Origin: Flavobacterium arcticum
Lineage (GTDB): Bacteria; Bacteroidota; Bacteroidia; Flavobacteriales; Flavobacteriaceae
DNA length: 64,000 nt
Direction of reading: 5' to 3'
Assembly (NCBI RefSeq): GCF_003344925.1
Contig: NZ_CP031188.1
Coordinates: forward strand, 1,238,501-1,302,500
Shown here: one piece after another, positions 44,813-55,142 of the stretch
Numbering within the stretch: the stretch's first letter is position 1
Layout of the letters: every line of letters begins with the position of its first letter
Program-made: the position numbers and the translations under genes
The notes under the pieces: generated by a model
Databases searched by the model: none
The model's input: only the letters and a program-made list of their open reading frames with translations
Told to the model about the DNA's origin: nothing

Positions 44813-45568
44813 CTATTCTGGGTTTTGGCGTAGGTTGGCAATAGAGCTCTCCAGTTGTGCAAGTCGTTGTTCTAGTTCGCTTTCGTTGCTTGGTAATGTA
44901 TATCTAAATAAATGCACTACTACCCATAGCCCTGTAATTTCTTTAGTGTTAAGAGCTATTGGTTCTACACCAGGATGGTTAGCTTTTAGGACTACTTTAT
45001 CATTTTGATAGTTTATTTTTCTAAAATAAAAATCGTTGGCTGTGGCTATAAGTACTAGTTCTCCGTTAGTTTTTTCAATTTCATCAAGTGGTATTTGTGT
45101 ACCTATTACCATATCTTTTGGTAAAAAACCATTTGGCTCGCCAGACATGGTTAAATCATCTATTACTAACGCTAGTTTATGCGTTCCGCTAACGTGGGGT
45201 AGGTAAACAGAGGGTAATTGCACGTTGCTAATATTATTAGCAATATTGTATTGTTTAATGAAATCTTCTTTATTGTTCTCAGAAATACAGGTAATACCTT
45301 CTTTATCATTGTCTTGTGTTTCTCCAGGTATTACCGTTATAGTCTCATTAAAGCGTAATAATCGGTTTACGGTAAGCTCCCTTGTTAATAGGTCATCTAT
45401 ACTAATACTAAAATGCTTAGCAATTTTTACAACGGTTTCTAGTTTAGGATTGCTACGGTTTTCTTCATACGCCCCGAGTGTAGCGCGCTTTAAATCAAAC
45501 AGTTCTGCAAATTCTTGCTGACTCATTCCGTGTACGCTGCGTATTTTTTTTAGATTCTTTCCAAACAT
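44813..45568 (-). CDS. CI-like repressor: HTH plus S24-like domain
   Basis: A 251-residue regulator. The N-terminal HTH (SQQEFAELFDLKRATLGAYE) is of the Cro/CI type. Residues about 115-220 resemble the LexA/CI C-terminal peptidase-like domain (DDLTMSGEPNGFLPKDMVIG, then GELVLIATANDFYFRKI), but the Ser-Lys pair that makes such proteins cut themselves is not clear, so it may bind a ligand instead. A short C-terminal coiled coil (ESELEQRLAQLESSI) fits dimer or tetramer formation. It is divergent from the PspA-flotillin operon, with three operator-like sites in between. Confidence 0.82.
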   Translation of the reverse strand: MFGKNLKKIRSVHGMSQQEFAELFDLKRATLGAYEENRSNPKLETVVKIAKHFSISIDDLLTRELTVNRLLRFNETITVIPGETQDNDKEGITCISENNKEDFIKQYNIANNISNVQLPSVYLPHVSGTHKLALVIDDLTMSGEPNGFLPKDMVIGTQIPLDEIEKTNGELVLIATANDFYFRKINYQNDKVVLKANHPGVEPIALNTKEITGLWVVVHLFRYTLPSNESELEQRLAQLESSIANLRQNPE

Positions 45569-45580
45569 GATAAAATTATT

Positions 45581-45599
45581 TTGCTAATAATATTTGCAA
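45581..45599. promoter_or_regulatory. Operator site 1 TTGCTAATAATATTTGCAA
   Basis: A 19-base palindrome with one mismatch pair. It overlaps the -33 TTG (45594-45596) of the plus-strand promoter, so binding would block it. Confidence 0.6.
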
Positions 45600-45615
45600 T
45601 TTAAAATTATTTTCT

Positions 45616-45623
45616 TAAATTTG
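45616..45623 (+). promoter_or_regulatory. Promoter of the PspA-flotillin operon (-7 TAAATTTG, -33 TTG)
   Basis: TAAATTTG matches TAnnTTTG. TTG at 45594-45596 is exactly 19 bases upstream, the best-spaced promoter seen in the window. The start would be near 45630, inside operator site 2. Confidence 0.6.
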
Positions 45624-45640
45624 TGCTAACAATATTAGCA
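45624..45640. promoter_or_regulatory. Operator site 2 TGCTAACAATATTAGCA
   Basis: Six-base arms TGCTAA/TTAGCA with a five-base spacer. The centre lies 42 bases (four helical turns) from site 1. A half-site GCTAA recurs at 45655-45659. Both promoters are covered, so the repressor probably controls both directions. Confidence 0.6.
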
Positions 45641-45646: not shown

Positions 45647-45775
45647 GTAATAATGCTAATATAATGAGTTTTTGAAGCTTAAAATTTTAACCCTTATTGT
45701 TAAAAAATATGTAAGGCAATAGTTGTAAGCCGTCAAAAAAAAAGCGAGTTTTATAAAATTATTAATACCTGTAAC

Positions 45776-46171
45776 ATGAAAGACTATTTTGGAGTGGTTA
45801 AAAATTACCTGAATGAGCTTGAGCTTGAGGTTAAATACGAAAATCATAAAGATGGCGTATTTATAGTGAGCAGCGAGCAAGACGGTATAGTTAATCTTAT
45901 TATTTGTGTGGCATATCCTATTGTTATTTTTGAGCAATATTTGTTTGAAATCAAGCCAGATGCTTACACAGTATTTAAAGAATTACTCCAAAAAAATCGC
46001 GATATTATTCACGGGGCCTTTGTTCTTGATGATACAGGTAGAAAAGTAATTTTCAGAGATTCGCTACAACTCGAAAATTTAGACCAGAATGAGTTTGGGG
46101 CAACGTTAAATTCGCTCAGCCTGTTGCTTAGCGAGTATTCGGAACAGATTATTAACTTTTCAAAAAATTAA
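45776..46171 (+). CDS. YbjN/type III chaperone-like protein, first gene of the Psp operon
   Basis: A 131-residue cytosolic protein with the alpha/beta pattern of the YbjN and T3SS-chaperone-like fold, including KNRDIIHGAFVLDDTG and FRDSLQLENLDQNEFGATL in the second half. I assign it by pattern, not by a strong motif. In E. coli a comparable protein (YjfI) lies before the PspA-like YjfJ, so the position directly before pspA is telling. It starts the plus-strand operon and is followed by pspA after 4 bases. A role as a small adaptor is inferred. Confidence 0.65.
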   Translation: MKDYFGVVKNYLNELELEVKYENHKDGVFIVSSEQDGIVNLIICVAYPIVIFEQYLFEIKPDAYTVFKELLQKNRDIIHGAFVLDDTGRKVIFRDSLQLENLDQNEFGATLNSLSLLLSEYSEQIINFSKN

Positions 46172-46175
46172 AAAG

Positions 46176-46892
46176 ATGAAATTTCTAAGAAGATTATTTA
46201 AGATTGGACAGGCAGAGGTGCACCACGCTATAGATGGAGTAGAAGATCCTATAAAAATGACAGAGCAAGGTATAAGAGATATGAAACAAGATCTTGATAA
46301 AGGTCTAGAAGCTTTGGCGCAGGTAAAAGCCATGAGCATACGTGCTAAAAATGAGATAGAAGAGCACGGTAACAAGGCAGAAGATTATAACGAAAAAGCC
46401 ATGCTGATACTAAAAAAAGCACAAAAAGGCGATATGGATGCCGAAGAGGCTGACCGACTAGCAACTGAAGCCTTGCTTAAAAAAGAAGAATCAATGGCAC
46501 ACCAGCAGCGTGCTGAGGGTGACAAGGAGAAATTTGACCAAAATGTATTGCAAATGGAGGGCAATGTGCAAACCATTAAGCAAAATATTAATAAATGGGA
46601 AAACGAATTAAAAATATTAAGAAGCCGTGTTAAGGTTGCGGATGCTACTAAGAGCCTTAACAAACAAATGGCTAAGATAGATACAAATGGCACCATATCG
46701 CTTTTAGAACGTATGAAAGAAAAAGTAATACAAGAGGAAGCGTTAGCGGAAGCCTATGGCGAAATTGCCAACTCAACCAAATCGGTAGATGCCGAGATAG
46801 ACAAGGCTGTAGATGTAAAAAAATCTAAAGCCATGAGCGAGCTCGAAAAGCTGAAATCCCAAATGGGTATCGGCGGTGGCACACCGGAATAA
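46176..46892 (+). CDS. pspA: PspA/IM30-family membrane-stress protein
   Basis: A 238-residue, almost wholly helical protein of the PspA/Vipp1/ESCRT-III family, which forms rings or rods on the inner membrane and guards it against stress. The N-terminus (KFLRRLFKIGQAEVHHAIDGVEDPIKMTEQGIRDM, in pieces) is typical, followed by coiled coils with Ala, Glu and Lys heptads. It ends in a short Gly-rich tail (MGIGGGTPE). It sits between the YbjN-like and OB-fold genes in the operon. No PspF, PspB or PspC is here, so this is not the enterobacterial circuit. Confidence 0.93.
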   Translation: MKFLRRLFKIGQAEVHHAIDGVEDPIKMTEQGIRDMKQDLDKGLEALAQVKAMSIRAKNEIEEHGNKAEDYNEKAMLILKKAQKGDMDAEEADRLATEALLKKEESMAHQQRAEGDKEKFDQNVLQMEGNVQTIKQNINKWENELKILRSRVKVADATKSLNKQMAKIDTNGTISLLERMKEKVIQEEALAEAYGEIANSTKSVDAEIDKAVDVKKSKAMSELEKLKSQMGIGGGTPE

Positions 46893-46906
46893 TACATACT
46901 TAAACA

Positions 46907-47545
46907 ATGGAGGAATTAATTAGAATTTCTTTTTCGCCTGTCAATGCATTTTTTACCATCATGTCTATTATCATGTTGCTATATTGGCTATTGGTCATTA
47001 TAGCAGGTTTAGATCCTGATTTATTTAGTGTAGAGTTTGATGCAGCAGATGTTGATGGCGATTTTGGTGTCGATGGCAACGGGGGTAGTGGTGGATTCAT
47101 GAAAATACTCGAGTATTTTAGTTTTGACGAACTCCCCATGATGTTTATTGTTACCATAGTCTTTTTTAGTATGTGGTTTTTAGGCGTCAATATCTCATAC
47201 TATTTAGGCGTAGAGAGTTCTTTGTTAGGATTTATATTACTTATTCCTAACTTTATTTTTAGTCTGTTTTTAGTGAAAATATTGGCCAAACCACTGGGAA
47301 AGCTATATAAACTAGTCAACCATAAGGGCGAACCAGAAATTGATTTTTTAGGGCGCAGGTGTAATGTTATTACATCAATAGCGCAAGATAAAACAGGAAT
47401 GATAGAACTCATAGTAAATGGCGACCCTATAAAGCTGTATGCCCGCAGTAATACCGAAGAAAGAATTACAGTAGGACAGCAAGCAGTTATAGTAAAAGAA
47501 AGCGAAGACAAGAGATACTACCTCATTGAAAAATTCGATTATTAG
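46907..47545 (+). CDS. YqiJ-like OB-fold membrane protein (NfeD/DUF1449 type)
   Basis: A 212-residue protein with membrane helices near residues 14-34, 88-108 and 113-134. An acidic Asp/Gly-rich loop (VEFDAADVDGDFGVDGNGG) lies after the first helix. The soluble C-terminal part (about 145-212) has the beta pattern of an OB fold (LGRRCNVITSIA, GMIELIVNGDPIKLYAR). Proteins of this type are encoded next to flotillins: E. coli YqiJ-YqiK, B. subtilis YuaF-FloT. It lies before the micro-protein and flotillin genes and probably binds the flotillin. Confidence 0.82.
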   Translation: MEELIRISFSPVNAFFTIMSIIMLLYWLLVIIAGLDPDLFSVEFDAADVDGDFGVDGNGGSGGFMKILEYFSFDELPMMFIVTIVFFSMWFLGVNISYYLGVESSLLGFILLIPNFIFSLFLVKILAKPLGKLYKLVNHKGEPEIDFLGRRCNVITSIAQDKTGMIELIVNGDPIKLYARSNTEERITVGQQAVIVKESEDKRYYLIEKFDY

Positions 47546-47580
47546 TACTTAAGAATAACATCATAAAACATCCAACAACC

Positions 47581-47655
47581 ATGATAGCAGTCTTTATTAC
47601 CATTATTTCAGCCTGTGTAGGGCTTATACAAACTATCATACAATCAATTTTTTAA
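47581..47655 (+). CDS. 24-residue hydrophobic micro-protein inside the Psp operon
   Basis: An open frame from ATG 47581 to TAA 47655 in the gap between the OB-fold and flotillin genes. It encodes 24 residues, starting MIAVFITIISACVGLIQ and ending in a hydrophobic tail, enough for one membrane helix. The leader AACAACC before the ATG resembles that before the flotillin ATG. The gap of 137 bases is unusually long for this tight operon unless it holds a gene. Such small membrane peptides can modulate partner complexes. Assignment as a real gene is by context only. Confidence 0.5.
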   Translation: MIAVFITIISACVGLIQTIIQSIF

Positions 47656-47682
47656 CCAACCAATTTAAACACTTAAAACAAA

Positions 47683-49743
47683 ATGTTAGGAGACACACTT
47701 ATTATTACCATGATAGCCATTATCGTTGTGATTATTGGTCTTGCAGTATGGATAATATCCATGTACAAAAAAACCATACAAGGTAAAGTTATAGTACGTA
47801 CTGGGTATGGAGGTACAAAAGTATTCTTTAATGCAGGGCTTATAGTACCAGTTTTCCATAAAATGGAGATTATGGACATCTCTGTAAAAAAGCTCGATGT
47901 AGAGCGTACAGGTGTTAACGGTCTTATCTGTAAAGACAACATCCGTGCCGATATCAAAGTAACGTTCTTTATCAAAATTAATAAATCTACTGCTGATATT
48001 ATTAACGTAGCACAAACCATCGGTTGCGAAAGAGCATCAGAAATTGATGTACTTAGGCAGCTGTTTGATGCTAAATTCTCGGAGGCATTAAAAACAGTAG
48101 GTAAAAAGTTTGATTTTATCGAGCTATACGAAGCCCGAAGCGAATTCCGTGAAGAGATTATCTCGATAATAGGAACAGACCTTAACGGTTATATTCTTGA
48201 TGACTGTGCTATTGACGATTTAGAACAAACATCATTAAGCCATCTAAAATCAGATAACATTCTTGACTCTGAAGGTATCAAGAAAATTACTGAGCTTACG
48301 GCTGCACAAAACATGAAATCAAACCTTATCCGCAGGGACGAGGAGAAAACCATCCGCAAGCAAGATGTAGAGGCACGTGAAGCTATTTTAGCACTAGACC
48401 GTCAGCTTGCCGAAAAAGAAGAAATACAAAAACGTGAGATAGCAAATATCAGATCGCGTGAGGAAGCTGAAATTGCAAAAGTAGCCGAAGAAGAAAAACT
48501 GAAATCGGAAACAGCACGCATTAGCACTGCCGAAAAAGTTCAGGTTGCCGAAGAAAACAAAGACAGGCTTGTAATTGTAGCAGCCAAGAACAAAGAACGT
48601 ACGGCTGCCGTAGAAACCGAAAGGGTAGAAAAAGACCGTGCATTAGAACAAACCGAAAGGGAACGTATTGTTACACTAGCTCAGATAGAGAAAGAAAAAG
48701 CCGTTGAGGTAGAGCGCAAAAACATACAGAATGTTATCCGCGATAGGGTTACGCTAGAAAAAGGCGTGGTGCAAGAGCAGGAAAACATGAAAGATATTGA
48801 GGCATTTAAAACTGCCGATAGGGAGAAAAAAGTAGCAATCACACTTGCCGAGAAATTAAGTGAAGAGCTATACATTAAACGCCTGAAAGCTGCCGAGGCA
48901 GAAAAAGAGGCAATGAAACAAAAAGCAGAAGAAATTAATATTGATGCTGCTGCTAGAATGGCTGCGAGTGAAAAAGAAGCCGAAGCCCGTAAAATACTTG
49001 CCGAAGCCAAAGCTAAGGAAGATGCTACATTAGGATTATCTGAAGCGCAAGTAATGCATGCTAAAGCGGACGCTAACGAAAGACAAGGTATAGTAGATGC
49101 GGTAATTATCGAGAAAAAAGCCCTTGCCGAAGCAGCAGGTCTTAAAGCAAGAGCCGAAGCCGAAAGAGAGTTCGGATTATCTGAAGCCAATGTTATTAAA
49201 GAGAAAGCATTTGCCGAAGCTAGCGGTATAGAAGAAAAAGCTGAAGCAATGAAGAAACTTGACGGTGTAGGTAAAGACCATGAAGAGTTCAAGTTAAAAC
49301 TAGATAAAGAACTTCAAGTTGATCTTGCACACATCAATATCCAGAAAGATATTGCAGATGCTCAGGCAAGCGTAATAGGAGAAGCACTTAAAGCGGCTAA
49401 GATTGATATTGTGGGTGGCGAAACAATGTTCTTTGACCAGATTGTTAACCAGATAACAAGAGCCAAAGGCTTTGACAGACTGGTAAACCACTCTGAGAAT
49501 ATTACCGAGATTAAAGATGCTATTTTAGGCGAAGGTGGCGAAAGCCAAGAAAACCTAATAGAGCGTGTTAAAGGCTTTGCCGATAAATACAACATCTCGT
49601 CAGAGGATATAAAAAACCTAACCGTAGCCGGACTGCTTATGGAACTGCAAAAACGCAGTAGCGATGACGGAGAGCAAGGCTTGTTTGCTAACCTGATGGA
49701 TATGGCTAAAAACCTAGGCTTGTCTAACAGGAAGCTGGGATAA
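47683..49743 (+). CDS. Flotillin-like SPFH protein (YqiK type)
   Basis: A 686-residue membrane scaffold. One N-terminal helix (IITMIAIIVVIIGLAVWIISMY) is followed by an SPFH/Band-7 domain (about 30-200; KVIVRTGYGGTKVFFNAG, IRADIKVTFFIKI). A very long Ala/Glu/Lys coiled-coil region (about 210-560) and a C-terminal part of about 120 residues follow. Flotillins form oligomers that order membrane patches. It is longer than E. coli YqiK, mainly in the coiled coil. The preceding OB-fold gene and the pspA gene make an envelope-stress context. Confidence 0.93.
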   Translation: MLGDTLIITMIAIIVVIIGLAVWIISMYKKTIQGKVIVRTGYGGTKVFFNAGLIVPVFHKMEIMDISVKKLDVERTGVNGLICKDNIRADIKVTFFIKINKSTADIINVAQTIGCERASEIDVLRQLFDAKFSEALKTVGKKFDFIELYEARSEFREEIISIIGTDLNGYILDDCAIDDLEQTSLSHLKSDNILDSEGIKKITELTAAQNMKSNLIRRDEEKTIRKQDVEAREAILALDRQLAEKEEIQKREIANIRSREEAEIAKVAEEEKLKSETARISTAEKVQVAEENKDRLVIVAAKNKERTAAVETERVEKDRALEQTERERIVTLAQIEKEKAVEVERKNIQNVIRDRVTLEKGVVQEQENMKDIEAFKTADREKKVAITLAEKLSEELYIKRLKAAEAEKEAMKQKAEEINIDAAARMAASEKEAEARKILAEAKAKEDATLGLSEAQVMHAKADANERQGIVDAVIIEKKALAEAAGLKARAEAEREFGLSEANVIKEKAFAEASGIEEKAEAMKKLDGVGKDHEEFKLKLDKELQVDLAHINIQKDIADAQASVIGEALKAAKIDIVGGETMFFDQIVNQITRAKGFDRLVNHSENITEIKDAILGEGGESQENLIERVKGFADKYNISSEDIKNLTVAGLLMELQKRSSDDGEQGLFANLMDMAKNLGLSNRKLG

Positions 49744-49774
49744 TTATGAGTTTATCTGATTTTTTTAAATAATG

Positions 49775-49802
49775 CCTTCGGTGTGCCAAAGCACACCGAG
49801 GG
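49775..49802 (+). terminator. Strong hairpin after the flotillin gene, weak T-run
   Basis: Twelve-base arms (49775-49786 with 49791-49802, one G-U pair) around a CAAA loop, then TTACTTTTACT. It may be a partial terminator or mRNA-stabilising hairpin that lowers expression of the lipoprotein and AAA genes relative to pspA and flotillin. Confidence 0.65.
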
Positions 49803-49823
49803 TTACTTTTACTCTCGCATACT

Positions 49824-50276
49824 ATGAAAAGAATAATTTCAATGATGATTCTATTTTTTATTGCGGTTTCTTGTAATTCTTATCAGAATGTATCTAGTAA
49901 TGAATCAAACAAAACTACAGAGCCTATAGCGGATGATTATGAGAGCAATTGGGTATATTTCGATTTACAGGAATCAACCGAACTAAAGATTATTTCTCAT
50001 CAACTGGCAGGCGTTGGTTGTGGAACTATAGCAACAGCATCAGTTACAATAGGAGTTACAAAAAAGAATGATACAATTAGAGTATTTGAATTGTGTAATA
50101 CTAAAAAAGATTTTCCGGTTAATGGAAATGTAATTATAGAGCCTGCAACACGTCCGAGCTTTACTGTAATGTACCCAAAAATATATATTCAAGACGAAAA
50201 TGGAAGTTTGTTAACACATCCTGTCAACAAACAAGTCTTGAAGACAACTTACGGAATAATCGAAAGAAAAAAATAA
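49824..50276 (+). CDS. Small lipoprotein inserted in the operon (150 aa)
   Basis: Lipobox AVSC near residue 17, followed by Asn/Ser-rich residues without the SKDD export signal, so it may stay in the inner membrane or periplasm. The domain is beta-rich, with a Cys pair (GVGCGTIATA and LCNTKK). I do not recognise it. It lies between flotillin and the AAA gene, with a 12-base gap to the AAA gene. It may report periplasmic state to the complex or be an unrelated insertion. Confidence 0.7.
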   Translation: MKRIISMMILFFIAVSCNSYQNVSSNESNKTTEPIADDYESNWVYFDLQESTELKIISHQLAGVGCGTIATASVTIGVTKKNDTIRVFELCNTKKDFPVNGNVIIEPATRPSFTVMYPKIYIQDENGSLLTHPVNKQVLKTTYGIIERKK

Positions 50277-50288
50277 TACAACCACACC

Positions 50289-53200
50289 ATGAGTACACTG
50301 GAAGGCGGTACATATGAAATTATACAAGCACGTTTAGAAGCCCAAAAGAAAGATCTTTTGGACAGGCTGCAAAAACTAAATGGCGCGCGGAAGGAAGTAT
50401 TTGGCAGTATCGAAACCAAACTGATAGCCAATAACAGAATTATTACCCAAAATAACTGTATTCCTGCCGATATTGTATCAATAAACGACAGGTGCATATT
50501 GGGGTATAATGTACACTTTGGGCTGCGTACCGATATTAAGGCTGAGGATGTTTTTGCCATATATGTATATGAAAACGGCGATTTTCGTGAGGAAAACCTC
50601 GACTTTATTGGCGACGAAACATTCCAAACTGATTTTTTTAACCTTTATAAATATTACAGAGATACCAGTTTTCGCAAGTTTTTTATTGCGGGTAACTACC
50701 TGCACATGGTATTCCAAATCAGCGACCGAATTTCGGATATAAAGACATTCAAATGGCTGATAAAAGACAACCAGCTTACTTATATAGACAACAGGAGCGA
50801 CCACGAATATAAATTTCCGCGTCAGCACGATTTCAGGTGGCAGGAAACCACGCGCGAAATGCAAAAGTATGGCGAACACCCTCACGTTTCTATACTCGAT
50901 AAAGTATTTGTAGAAACTGTGGGTGGTACACTTACCATAAAAATAGAAAACAATACCGCTGTAGGCAAAGGTATTTATGACGAAGATGTTATTCATCCTG
51001 ACCAAACGTTGGACGATGGTAATTTTCAATATGCCGATTTGGGTAACCTTATCGCACTGCGCATAAAACCCTTTCAGGAAGAGCCCCGTTATTTTATATA
51101 TAATCATAAATTACAGGAAGTCCGCAAGATAGACAGCCTTGAAACATCGGCTATTTTATTGCCTGACGATCATGGGTTGATATTCTCTAACGGGTATTAC
51201 TTGCAAACAGGCGAATATAAAATATTTGAGAGTAGTCTGGAAAACCTGATGTTTCAGGAACGTATCGCATCGCCTAACGGCGAGGACTTTATGTATGTTT
51301 TTTATGAAGAAACCTACGGGCAGTATGTACTGATGTCCTATAACCTTATTACCCGCGAGGTAATGACACCCATTGTTTGTAATGGTTATACCATTCTTAA
51401 AAACGGCGAGCTGTGCTACTTCCGTGCGGAAGATGAAGCGACTAAAAATCACTTGGTACAAATATGGCAAACGCCGTTTGTAAAAAGCGATATTATGCCG
51501 TCACAACACAAGGACAGCTACATCTATAAAATAGGCAATAAGGATATTGTAAAAGCTATGGCAGACAGTCAAGCCATTATTACCTTATTGAATAAAAATG
51601 ACGATTATGCAGGCTTGTATGCCGACCTTACTCGTTTGTCTCAAAACATACTTGATGGCTATTACTGGATAACCAACAGTGAGACGTTTGAGCTTAACAA
51701 GCCACTTACCGAGATAAAAAGCACGGCAAATGCCGCCATCGATGAGTTTGAAAAGGTGGTGCAATTGCGCCATAATGCCAAGAAAATTACAGGAGAGGTA
51801 CGGCAAAAAGCAGAGAGTCTTTTTATACAAATAAAGAGTTCTCCGCTTAACGATATTGATGTTTTTGTAGCCGATCTTGCCGGATTACGCTCACTACGTG
51901 GCGAAGTAATAAGCCTGCGCGAAGTACGCTATGTTGACACTGAGTTTATTAATGAGCTGGAAGCCGAAATTGTAGAACAAACCGAGAATATTTCGCAAAA
52001 CTGTGTAGAGTTCCTTATGGATGAAAAGGCTTTAGAGCCATATCATGCACGGGTAGAAGAAAAGAAAGGCGAAATAGAAAATATTACCACCGTTGCCGAA
52101 GGTAAAGAATTGCAAGATGCCGTAAATAGCATTACTGCCGATTTGGAAATGCTGATTGATATCGTATCGAATTTAAAGATAGATGATACCTCGAAGTCAA
52201 CACAAATTATCAATAATATCTCCCTGATATTTGCTACACTTAACCGCGTTAAGGCAGATATAAAAAACAAGATTTCATCGCTTGGCAGTAAAGAAGCAAA
52301 AGCCGATTTTGCAGCACAGATAAAACTGATAGACCAAAGTATTGTAAATGCACTCGACAGAGCTACCACTCCTGAAAAAGCGGATGAATTACTGAATAAA
52401 ATTTCAGTACAACTGGAAGACCTTGAAGCACGCTTTGCCGACTATGAGGAGTTTACAGGGGCTATCATGGAGAAGCGCGAAGAGGTATATTCGGCATTCG
52501 AAGCGAAGAAAAATGCACTTACCGAGGCACGCAATAAAAAGGCGATTGCCATAGAAAATGCTTCAAGCCGTATTTTAAAAAATGTGGCAACTAAGGCACT
52601 TACATTCGATTCGGTTGAGGAGATAAACGGTTATTTTGCATCTGACCTGATGATTGCCAAACTCCGCGACCTTGTAGAGCAACTTATAGCACTAGAAGAT
52701 ACAGGCAAAGCCGAAGCCATAGAAACCGAATTGAAATCAGCGAGAGAAGATGCACTTCGTAAACTGAAAGACAAGCAGGACTTGTATGAAGACGGCGAAA
52801 ATATTATAAAGTTGGGTACTCATAAGTTTGCGGTAAACAAGCAACCGCTAGACTTAACGATAGTGTATAAAGACGGTAACCTGAACTATCATTTAACAGG
52901 GACTGATTTTTACCAAGAGTTGAAAAGTGAAACCTTATTAGCTTCTAAAAAATATTGGAGTCAGGAACTGGTTTCAGAAAATGAAAAGATATACAGAGCA
53001 GCTTTCTTGGCATACAAGATATTCAGGAATAATGCTCCTGAAAAGCTTTTTAATATGACCGATGAAGCCTTAGAGGCTTTAGTAGCTGAAGAAACGTCTA
53101 AAAACTATACCGAAGGCTATGTAAAAGGCGTGCATGATGCCGATGCTTTTAAAATACTGAAAACATTGGTGGCAAAGCATCATAACTTGGGGTTGTTGCG

Positions 53201-55142
53201 CTACGCGCCTATCACCCGAGCGTTTGCACAGTTCTTTTGGTATGCACAAGAAGATGAAGCTCGGAATATCATTAATAGCAAAATAAAAGCGTCGGGAGGC
53301 GTGCTGGCGATATTCCCTAATAGCAAGGAGTTTGATTATATTGTTAAAGAGTTACAGCAAAAACTAGAGGCGCATTTACACAATACAGCTTTTGGTAAAG
53401 ACTTGGCTATTGATACGGCTAAAACAGCACGCTATCTTTTTGATGAATTAAAGGATGATGATGCTTTTACAGTAAGCCATAAAGCGGCACAACTGGCGGA
53501 GAGCTTTATAAAAATGCTCGACAGCAAGGGTGCAGCCGTTACCTTTAGACATAATATAGACCATGCTTCTGATAAAGAGAGTGGTGTGCTACTGGCTGCA
53601 CAATGGGTAGCTTCTTATTTAGAAGAAACCGAGCAACAGCAGTATGCACAGTATTTGTATGAAATAACAGCTTTGTTATTATACAGGCATGAGTCGGCAG
53701 AGAAAATAGTACCGATAGAACCAGATGAAGAAATTACAGGACTAGCAGGTTCTCACCCAACAATAGAGGAAGGGAAATATCATTTCCACTATCATGAGTT
53801 TACACGAATTTTCGGTAACTATTATGATAACGAAATGCCTGCTTTTGAAAACTTCAGAGCAGAACGCCACAAGCTTACCATAGAGCTTAAAGAACAATTG
53901 CGTTTAAATGAGTTTATGCCAAAAGTATTGACCTCGTTTGTTCGTAATAAGTTAATTGATCAAGTCTATTTGCCATTATTTGGTGAAAACCTTGCCAAAC
54001 AATTGGGTAGTGCAGGCGAAAACCGCCGAACTGATCGTTCGGGAATGTTACTATTGGTATCGCCACCAGGTTATGGTAAAACCACCTTAATGGAGTATCT
54101 AGCGAACAGGCTTGGGTTGGTTTTCATGAAAATAAACGGTCCTGCAATTGGGCACGATATTACATCGGTAGACCCATCGTCGGCTACTAATGCAGCAGCT
54201 CGTGAGGAATTGAAGAAGCTGAACCTTGCCCTTGAAATGGGGAATAATGTAATGCTATATCTTGATGATATACAGCATTGTAGTCCTGAGTTTTTACAGA
54301 AGTTTATTTCGCTTGCCGATGGTACGCGTAAGATAGAAGGTATATATAATGGGCAACCCAAAACGTATGACATGAAATCGAAGAAGTTTTGTGTTATTAT
54401 GGCGGGTAACCCTTATACCGAAACTGGCGAGAAATTCCGCATACCCGATATGCTTGCCAACCGTGCCGATATTTACAATTTGGGTGATGTTATAGGTAGT
54501 ACAAGCGACTTGTTTGAATTGAGCCTTATAGAGAATGCTTTAACGTCTAACCCTGTATTGGCAAGTATAATGGCTAAAAACGGTGATGACTTGTACCCGA
54601 TGATTGAAATGGCAACAACAGAGCAGCGTGATGGCATTGAACTGAAAGGTAATTATAGCAAGCAGGAAATAGAAACCTACGTTAGTGTACTAGATAAAGT
54701 AATAAAAGTGCGTGATGTAGTACTAAAAGCCAATGCCGCCTATATTGCCTCAGCAGCTATGGAAGATGCCTATCGAATAGAACCGCCATTTAGGTTGCAA
54801 GGATCTTACCGTGATATGAACAAGCTAGTTGCTAAGATAGTACCTGTTATGAACAATGATGAGATAAGCACTCTCTTACTTTCGCATTACCGTAACGAAA
54901 CACAAACGCTTACCAGTGCTGCCGAAGCGAACCTACTTAAGTATAAAGAAATGACAGGGCAACTCTCGGAAGAAGATGTAGCGCGTTGGGAGTCTATAAA
55001 AGAGACTTTTGTAAAGAACAACAAACTTAAAGGCTTTGGCAACCGAGATGACATGGCACAAATGCTATCGCAAGTAATGGAATTTACCGAGCATATAGAA
55101 GGTATAAAAGAGATATTGCGAAGAGGTATTGAAAAGCAATAA
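50289..55142 (+). CDS. Giant AAA+ ATPase (1617 aa), family often annotated DNA repair ATPase
   Basis: A very large cytosolic protein. Residues 1-400 are a beta-rich domain with WD/propeller-like strands. Residues about 480-850 form long coiled coils. An alpha-helical stretch follows, then a single AAA+ core near 1240-1450: Walker A PPGYGKTT (about 1258-1265), Walker B VMLYLDDIQ (about 1320), a sensor AGNPYTET and Arg in ANRADIYN. It has no helicase or nuclease motif, so the common label DNA repair ATPase lacks support here. Position in an operon with pspA and flotillin argues for a remodelling ATPase at the membrane. Confidence 0.87.
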   Translation: MSTLEGGTYEIIQARLEAQKKDLLDRLQKLNGARKEVFGSIETKLIANNRIITQNNCIPADIVSINDRCILGYNVHFGLRTDIKAEDVFAIYVYENGDFREENLDFIGDETFQTDFFNLYKYYRDTSFRKFFIAGNYLHMVFQISDRISDIKTFKWLIKDNQLTYIDNRSDHEYKFPRQHDFRWQETTREMQKYGEHPHVSILDKVFVETVGGTLTIKIENNTAVGKGIYDEDVIHPDQTLDDGNFQYADLGNLIALRIKPFQEEPRYFIYNHKLQEVRKIDSLETSAILLPDDHGLIFSNGYYLQTGEYKIFESSLENLMFQERIASPNGEDFMYVFYEETYGQYVLMSYNLITREVMTPIVCNGYTILKNGELCYFRAEDEATKNHLVQIWQTPFVKSDIMPSQHKDSYIYKIGNKDIVKAMADSQAIITLLNKNDDYAGLYADLTRLSQNILDGYYWITNSETFELNKPLTEIKSTANAAIDEFEKVVQLRHNAKKITGEVRQKAESLFIQIKSSPLNDIDVFVADLAGLRSLRGEVISLREVRYVDTEFINELEAEIVEQTENISQNCVEFLMDEKALEPYHARVEEKKGEIENITTVAEGKELQDAVNSITADLEMLIDIVSNLKIDDTSKSTQIINNISLIFATLNRVKADIKNKISSLGSKEAKADFAAQIKLIDQSIVNALDRATTPEKADELLNKISVQLEDLEARFADYEEFTGAIMEKREEVYSAFEAKKNALTEARNKKAIAIENASSRILKNVATKALTFDSVEEINGYFASDLMIAKLRDLVEQLIALEDTGKAEAIETELKSAREDALRKLKDKQDLYEDGENIIKLGTHKFAVNKQPLDLTIVYKDGNLNYHLTGTDFYQELKSETLLASKKYWSQELVSENEKIYRAAFLAYKIFRNNAPEKLFNMTDEALEALVAEETSKNYTEGYVKGVHDADAFKILKTLVAKHHNLGLLRYAPITRAFAQFFWYAQEDEARNIINSKIKASGGVLAIFPNSKEFDYIVKELQQKLEAHLHNTAFGKDLAIDTAKTARYLFDELKDDDAFTVSHKAAQLAESFIKMLDSKGAAVTFRHNIDHASDKESGVLLAAQWVASYLEETEQQQYAQYLYEITALLLYRHESAEKIVPIEPDEEITGLAGSHPTIEEGKYHFHYHEFTRIFGNYYDNEMPAFENFRAERHKLTIELKEQLRLNEFMPKVLTSFVRNKLIDQVYLPLFGENLAKQLGSAGENRRTDRSGMLLLVSPPGYGKTTLMEYLANRLGLVFMKINGPAIGHDITSVDPSSATNAAAREELKKLNLALEMGNNVMLYLDDIQHCSPEFLQKFISLADGTRKIEGIYNGQPKTYDMKSKKFCVIMAGNPYTETGEKFRIPDMLANRADIYNLGDVIGSTSDLFELSLIENALTSNPVLASIMAKNGDDLYPMIEMATTEQRDGIELKGNYSKQEIETYVSVLDKVIKVRDVVLKANAAYIASAAMEDAYRIEPPFRLQGSYRDMNKLVAKIVPVMNNDEISTLLLSHYRNETQTLTSAAEANLLKYKEMTGQLSEEDVARWESIKETFVKNNKLKGFGNRDDMAQMLSQVMEFTEHIEGIKEILRRGIEKQ

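Follow-up and report, generated by a model that had tools for sequence, protein, structure and literature searches.

The window analyzed here, a stretch of 64,000 nucleotides of the Flavobacterium arcticum genome (NCBI RefSeq assembly GCF_003344925.1, contig NZ_CP031188.1, positions 1,238,501 to 1,302,500 of the forward strand), contains a row of plus-strand genes for a CesT/Tir chaperone-like protein, a PspA/IM30 family protein, a YqiJ/YuaF-like membrane protein, a flotillin-like protein and a giant AAA+ ATPase, preceded by a divergent gene for a repressor with a CI/LexA fold (Table 1). The operon is of a known kind and well conserved, and carries a control layer that looks new. The genome consists of one contig of 2.97 Mb, and its single PspA match and single DUF3686 match both lie at this locus. 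The frames had been named in an earlier note made from the sequence alone, and a check of open reading frames (ORFs) found them present at the positions first given. The PspA, AAA+ and divergent helix-turn-helix (HTH) frames were confirmed, while the first frame, previously called YbjN-like, matches YbjN weakly (E 0.011) as compared with CesT_Tir_1 (E 2.1e-52). The flotillin label held, as the protein exceeds the Band_7 cut-off in the genome profile search (E 1.2e-12) and aligns, in its N-terminal half only, with a PF15975-bearing flotillin (hhalign E 5e-57); hmmscan of the protein gave no Band_7 or flotillin match, a PDB search was also empty, and PF15975 (the C-terminal flotillin domain) has no match in the genome at E 0.001. 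The YqiJ label is weakly supported (YqiJ_N in 7/19 members; YuaF chain 2k14, E 0.0074). The ATPase, of 1617 amino acids, matches DUF3686 (E 2e-180), which Ravi et al. (2024, mSystems, PMC11237479) describe as a beta-propeller, followed by DUF7902 and AAA. As for the classical Psp control genes, the PspF/sigma-54 activator and PspC are not among the locus genes (PspB was not searched for), and elsewhere in the genome lie one PspC match, 1.2 Mb away, and both strong sigma-54 activator matches. An Rfam search of the window gave no match at gathering score.

The divergent gene encodes an HTH protein whose C-terminus is weakly S24-like, under the Pfam cut-off. A structure search with its AlphaFold2 model (predicted local distance difference test, pLDDT, 84.6; predicted template modeling score, pTM, 0.55) returned lambda repressor first (E 6.8e-8) and also LexA, in line with the earlier proposal of a CI-like regulator in place of PspF. 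In an alignment with LexA of low significance (1jhc, E 0.0095), the column of the catalytic Lys is occupied by Arg, as it is in 19/19 aligned regulators with a full-length C-terminus, a comparison that took in 19 of 32 regulators and left out the 13 with a diverged or shorter one. With Arg in place of the catalytic Lys, the window's repressor is unlikely to undergo SOS-type self-cleavage and, judging from its sequence, seems to have lost self-cutting. A repressor that answers DNA damage via RecA or a partner protease, placing the operon within the SOS response, would agree with the LexA/CI fold and with the Ser found at the presumed nucleophile position (placed by eye) in 5/19 members; the uniform Arg and the absence, by eye, of a conserved Ala-Gly or Cys-Gly linker pair make such a response extremely improbable.

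Upstream of the CesT gene lies TTTG-N19-TAAATTTG, a predicted Bacteroidota-type promoter, and the putative operator pattern GCTAA-N5-TTWGC repeats around it. The whole window contains two perfect GCTAA-N5-TTAGC sites, both at this locus. Across related loci, TTTGCTAA-N5-TTTGCA with at most two mismatches was found in 31/32 regulator–CesT gaps on either strand and in 29/32 on the plus strand, using the first 160 nt of each gap, omitting L027 as a duplicate, and with a pattern derived from the same gaps. In 29 of the 32 gaps none of 100 first-order shuffles scored as well, and five positions of the operator core are invariant in all 32 gaps. The single miss (L030) and a Hymenobacter plasmid copy (L078) both carry GCTCA-N5-TGAGC, a symmetric change in both half-sites, as expected of a dyad read by a dimer. 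The operator is followed by a TAnnTTTG element in 20/32 gaps, with identical spacing in 18 of the 20, and the Bacteroidota-type promoter is present in 17/28 regulator–CesT gaps. Genome-wide, the operator pattern outnumbers its reversed control roughly twofold (121 and 105 vs 63 and 70). Two of the three perfect matches in the F. arcticum genome, among the matches listed, none of them on the reverse strand, fall at this locus; eight sites with at most one mismatch, again among the matches listed, lie off the locus, and a regulon extending beyond it was rejected, all five of those checked lying inside coding frames. A second conserved block (AAAAA..CGAGTTTTATAAAATTATT; 45733-45775) directly precedes the CesT start in Flavobacterium loci.

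Table 1. Predicted genes and sequence elements of the locus, numbered by position in the window.
Feature	Positions	Strand	Basis
CI/LexA-fold repressor: HTH_3, degenerate S24-like domain, C-terminal helix	44813..45568	-	Pfam, alignment, model
Perfect GCTAA-N5-TTAGC site in repressor gene, possible auxiliary operator	45227..45241	.	Pattern scan
Operator-like site in repressor gene, one mismatch	45407..45421	.	Pattern scan
Putative operator O1, overlapping the -33 TTTG	45583..45597	.	Pattern scan, gap alignment
Bacteroidota-type promoter, TTTG-N19-TAAATTTG	45593..45623	+	Consensus match, predicted
Putative operator O2, perfect palindrome at expected transcription start	45625..45639	.	Pattern scan, gap alignment
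Putative operator O3, two mismatches; columns largely kept in 12 aligned Flavobacterium gaps	45655..45669	.	
CesT_Tir_1 chaperone-like protein	45776..46171	+	Pfam E 2.1e-52
PspA/IM30 family protein	46176..46892	+	PspA_IM30 E 6e-36; sole match in genome
YqiJ/YuaF-like (NfeD-type) membrane protein	46907..47545	+	Weak profile and structure-chain matches, position
24-aa hydrophobic ORF, putative microprotein	47581..47655	+	ORF comparison, pN/pS
SPFH/flotillin-like protein	47683..49743	+	Band_7 in genome search, hhalign
Hairpin, 13 pairs of which 8 GC; possible partial terminator ahead of lipoprotein and AAA+ genes	49774..49803	+	
1617-aa ATPase: DUF3686, coiled coil, AAA+	50289..55142	+	Pfam DUF3686, DUF7902, AAA

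The gene set is conserved across loci, as the earlier note had supposed. The 29 AAA+ loci retrieved comprise 28 distinct ones (L027 and L035 share one contig); 19 of the 29 were found by querying with the window's own ATPase, whose nearest named relative is that of Flavobacterium salilacus (94% identity), and near relatives are over-represented. The order CesT–PspA–YqiJ–flotillin–AAA+ is identical in 28/28 distinct loci, and a divergent HTH regulator precedes the operon in 27/28, the contig of the remaining one (L038) beginning 79 bp before CesT. Protein distances across the operon co-vary (r 0.84-0.95; 27 loci, uncorrected for shared ancestry). In the ATPase, the motifs taken as Walker A and sensor 1 (Asn), the Walker B region and a candidate Arg finger are invariant in 27/27. 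In a sample independent of the ATPase query, 296 genomes of the phylum including this one, DUF3686 occurs in eight, and in each of these CesT_Tir_1 and PspA lie at a distance of a few kb and the regulator is present; neither an order unique to the strain nor an AAA gene that never accompanies pspA or flotillin, the two outcomes named beforehand as fatal to the idea, was seen in the phylum. Among 80 relatives, again including this genome, CesT_Tir_1 exceeds the cut-off in 11, with the regulator within 1 kb in 10 (the exception being G071), and of 19 strong CesT_Tir_1 matches (E <1e-40) the eight from the same class all have the regulator. In three loci (L017, L018 and L019) regulator–CesT–PspA is present, and the stretch retrieved contains neither flotillin nor ATPase; L022 ends at a contig end, and in L020 (from G071) the flotillin gene lies 10.6 kb off, where the stretch stops.

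In a plasmid collection, the ATPase is encoded in 12 records, some of them chromosome-sized, and in each of the seven loci examined YqiJ, flotillin and AAA+ adjoin one another (YqiJ weak in L080 and L081). CesT with a regulator of this kind is found in one of the seven, the Hymenobacter plasmid, which carries the whole set, its regulator annotated as LexA family. The steadiest partner of the ATPase is the flotillin pair, in agreement with Ravi et al. (PMC11237479), who also describe shorter YqiJ–flotillin–AAA+ operons without PspA, and the steadiness of this trio in both sources suggests that the giant protein, annotated as a 'DNA repair ATPase', is a motor of flotillin scaffolds. A different arrangement is present on the large plasmid pQBR103 (L079, 1-13190), where YjfI–PspA–polyamine genes are joined to SPFH–'DNA repair ATPase'.

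A phage-like repressor on a patchily distributed locus (8/296 phylum genomes and 11/80 relatives), of which one plasmid carries the whole set, invites comparison with anti-phage defence systems, and the CI-like fold would suit one. PADLOC returned two weak matches (E 0.007-0.009) besides others that were generic to HTH and P-loop proteins. Of 23 pattern matches in viral contigs, the C-terminal ATPase profile confirmed none. No nuclease, protease or toxin domain appeared in the Pfam search of the conserved genes (S24-like fold excepted), and the self-cleavage lysine of the repressor is replaced. A defence function is accordingly very unlikely.

The gap between the flotillin and AAA+ genes contains a hairpin, contrary to the previous description of an operon without internal boundary, and this weakens the claim of one transcript. 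A stem of -14 kcal/mol or lower, starting at most 40 nt from the flotillin stop, is present in 16/29 flotillin–AAA+ gaps, at a threshold chosen after the values were seen and without a shuffle control, and similar stems were seen by eye in L016 and L033. A shuffle-controlled terminator scan of the window found 18 as compared with 8.9 expected. No Bacteroidota-type promoter was found in the 29 flotillin–AAA+ gaps or in the 29 YqiJ–flotillin gaps. The lipoprotein ORF in this gap, formerly counted as an operon member, was rejected as such, being without a tblastn match (1e-3) in 34 loci and thus local. The gap (49744-50288) appears as an insertion slot, with counterparts in L021, L023, L030, L031, L036-L038, L042 and L043, in which unrelated ORFs (by eye lipoprotein-like, GIY-YIG-like, transposase-like and DUF559-like) are found.

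Between yqiJ and the flotillin gene, a hydrophobic ORF, always of 24 codons, is present in 10 of the 13 closest-group Flavobacterium loci; of the other three, L033 has one of 20 amino acids, and L034 and L035 have none. The listing was restricted to a mean hydropathy >0.8, so that hydrophobicity was selected, length and position unselected. Nonsynonymous and synonymous changes per site (pN/pS) give a weak signal when pooled over all pairs (0.43/0.61), and in three close pairs pN is clearly lower (0.08/0.30, 0.04/0.24 and 0.10/0.41). Three more distant loci assigned to the genus, L023, L026 and L028, have no hydrophobic ORF at this place. Small hydrophobic ORFs occur at other positions elsewhere, including 16 amino acids before CesT in four Leeuwenhoekiella loci, 17 before CesT in L029, 19 before the flotillin gene in L025, and 21 between CesT and PspA in L026 and L028; L022 has a longer one, of 69 amino acids, between regulator and CesT (2299-2508).

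On balance, the locus probably represents, in Bacteroidia, the CesT/Tir–PspA–flotillin–AAA+ operon known from the literature, operating as a locally repressed membrane-remodelling module. The apparently non-self-cutting repressor would occupy several operators around one recognisable promoter, holding down expression of the operon and of its own gene, until a membrane disturbance lifts repression. This release would most likely depend on a ligand or on contact with another protein, and not on cleavage driven by RecA. Flotillin and the YqiJ-like protein would then form a membrane scaffold, and the CesT-like protein would chaperone PspA, which would assemble on the damaged membrane. The AAA+ protein, presumably produced in smaller amounts through read-through of the hairpin, would dock by its N-terminal part and spend ATP to remodel or dismantle the scaffold or the PspA assemblies, its likely clients, with membrane repair as the putative outcome. 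A more specific form of this mechanism makes the phage-type repressor fold a non-cleaving sensor of membrane stress that is displaced by PspA/CesT or by the 24-aa peptide, PspA thereby controlling its own operon by contact as a mirror image of PspA–PspF; this is an attractive but doubtful proposal.

Several observations weigh against the picture of a locally repressed module acting as a whole. Two-mismatch operator cores in the window are at chance level (50 vs 54), and therefore only the perfect sites and the conservation count; the promoter pattern alone is likewise not above chance (3 vs 4.4 expected), and its weight derives from its constant position, not from its frequency. The 13 regulators left out of the Lys comparison have, by eye, Arg in three, Gly, Ser or Gln in seven, a gap in two and Lys in one (L048). 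The model of the ATPase C-terminal part has a pTM of 0.47 (pLDDT 80), and the hairpin could terminate the transcript, with the AAA+ gene then using an unrecognised promoter. Outside the class, 11 CesT–PspA dyads are without the regulator (0/11; tblastn 1e-4 with eight queries, the stretch of L073 being just 5.5 kb) and their genomes without a DUF3686 match. PspA lies within 8 kb in 2/7 of the plasmid-collection loci, as against flotillin in 7/7, and PspA as an obligate partner of the ATPase is not supported. With regulator-less dyads on one side and PspA-less YqiJ–flotillin–AAA+ sets on the other, one obligate machine is not proven. Nine of the 11 dyads (L067-L071 and L073-L076) have, upstream of CesT, a gene for a small J-domain-like protein (HPD motif, by eye); the main text of the Ravi et al. 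paper mentions neither DnaJ nor J-domain.

These distributions lend some weight to two modules side by side, in which a repressor–CesT–PspA stress unit shares an operon with an independent YqiJ–flotillin–AAA+ membrane unit. Within the stretch retrieved, the first unit stands alone in L017, L018 and L019; the second is without nearby PspA in 5/7 plasmid-collection loci, and the hairpin marks the flotillin–AAA+ junction in 16/29. Both parts are nevertheless joined in all eight DUF3686 genomes of the phylum sample, they co-vary, and the Hymenobacter plasmid holds the entire set; independent modules are thus a serious but somewhat unlikely explanation. The locus is of wider interest because little is known about how PspA systems outside Proteobacteria are switched, and here a candidate switch, its operators and its target lie together and are directly testable.

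The gene set had been considered little described, and is in fact already reported by Ravi et al. (PMC11237479), who describe CesT/Tir–PspA with band-7/flotillin, YqiJ/YuaF and a propeller–coiled-coil–AAA+ protein (example ANH61663.1) and propose membrane remodelling for the set. The present locus has the same five conserved kinds of protein, associated likewise, with CesT/Tir adjoining PspA and band-7/flotillin, YqiJ/YuaF (weak) and AAA+ all present. It differs in having a CI/LexA-like regulator, putative operators, a putative microprotein and a hairpin, which are not mentioned in the main text of that paper, where LexA and S24 are absent and cHTH refers to ClgR. A literature search joining PspA, CesT, band-7 and AAA gave nothing beyond this study, and the dedicated CI/LexA-fold regulator, its operator, the 24-aa ORF and the post-flotillin hairpin, not found described, look new. 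In the Pseudomonas aeruginosa bacABCDEF operon, as covered in the parts of the report drawn on here (PMC10948618), a CesT-like/YjfI gene is also first and PspA next; the operon is co-transcribed, its first gene has a negative effect on the others (in its absence, levels of the remaining Bac proteins rise 6- to 13.5-fold), and a sigma-54 site is proposed, with no mention in those parts of a CI-like regulator. In the Bacillus subtilis PspA–YdjGHI system, the SPFH protein is needed for bringing PspA to the membrane, and, unlike at this locus, a giant AAA+ protein and a CI-like repressor are not mentioned in the corresponding parts of the source (PMC8581546).

At the level of single proteins, the AAA+ core leans weakly, from its model, towards the MoxR-type family (CbbQ, NorQ), a lean rather than a finding: Foldseek, at query TM values of 0.17-0.26, ranks CbbQ first (E 1.2e-5) and NorQ fourth, but FtsH-type chains rank second and third and Vps4 28th, the nearest solved chains by sequence are p97/NVL and RuvB, and neither a VWA partner nor an MIT domain was seen among the locus Pfam matches. 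Finally, the repressor differs from Lambda CI and LexA in its Arg for the catalytic Lys, its extra C-terminal helix and its lack of a second target among the sites examined, and shares with them the HTH, the S24-like fold and the palindromic operators.

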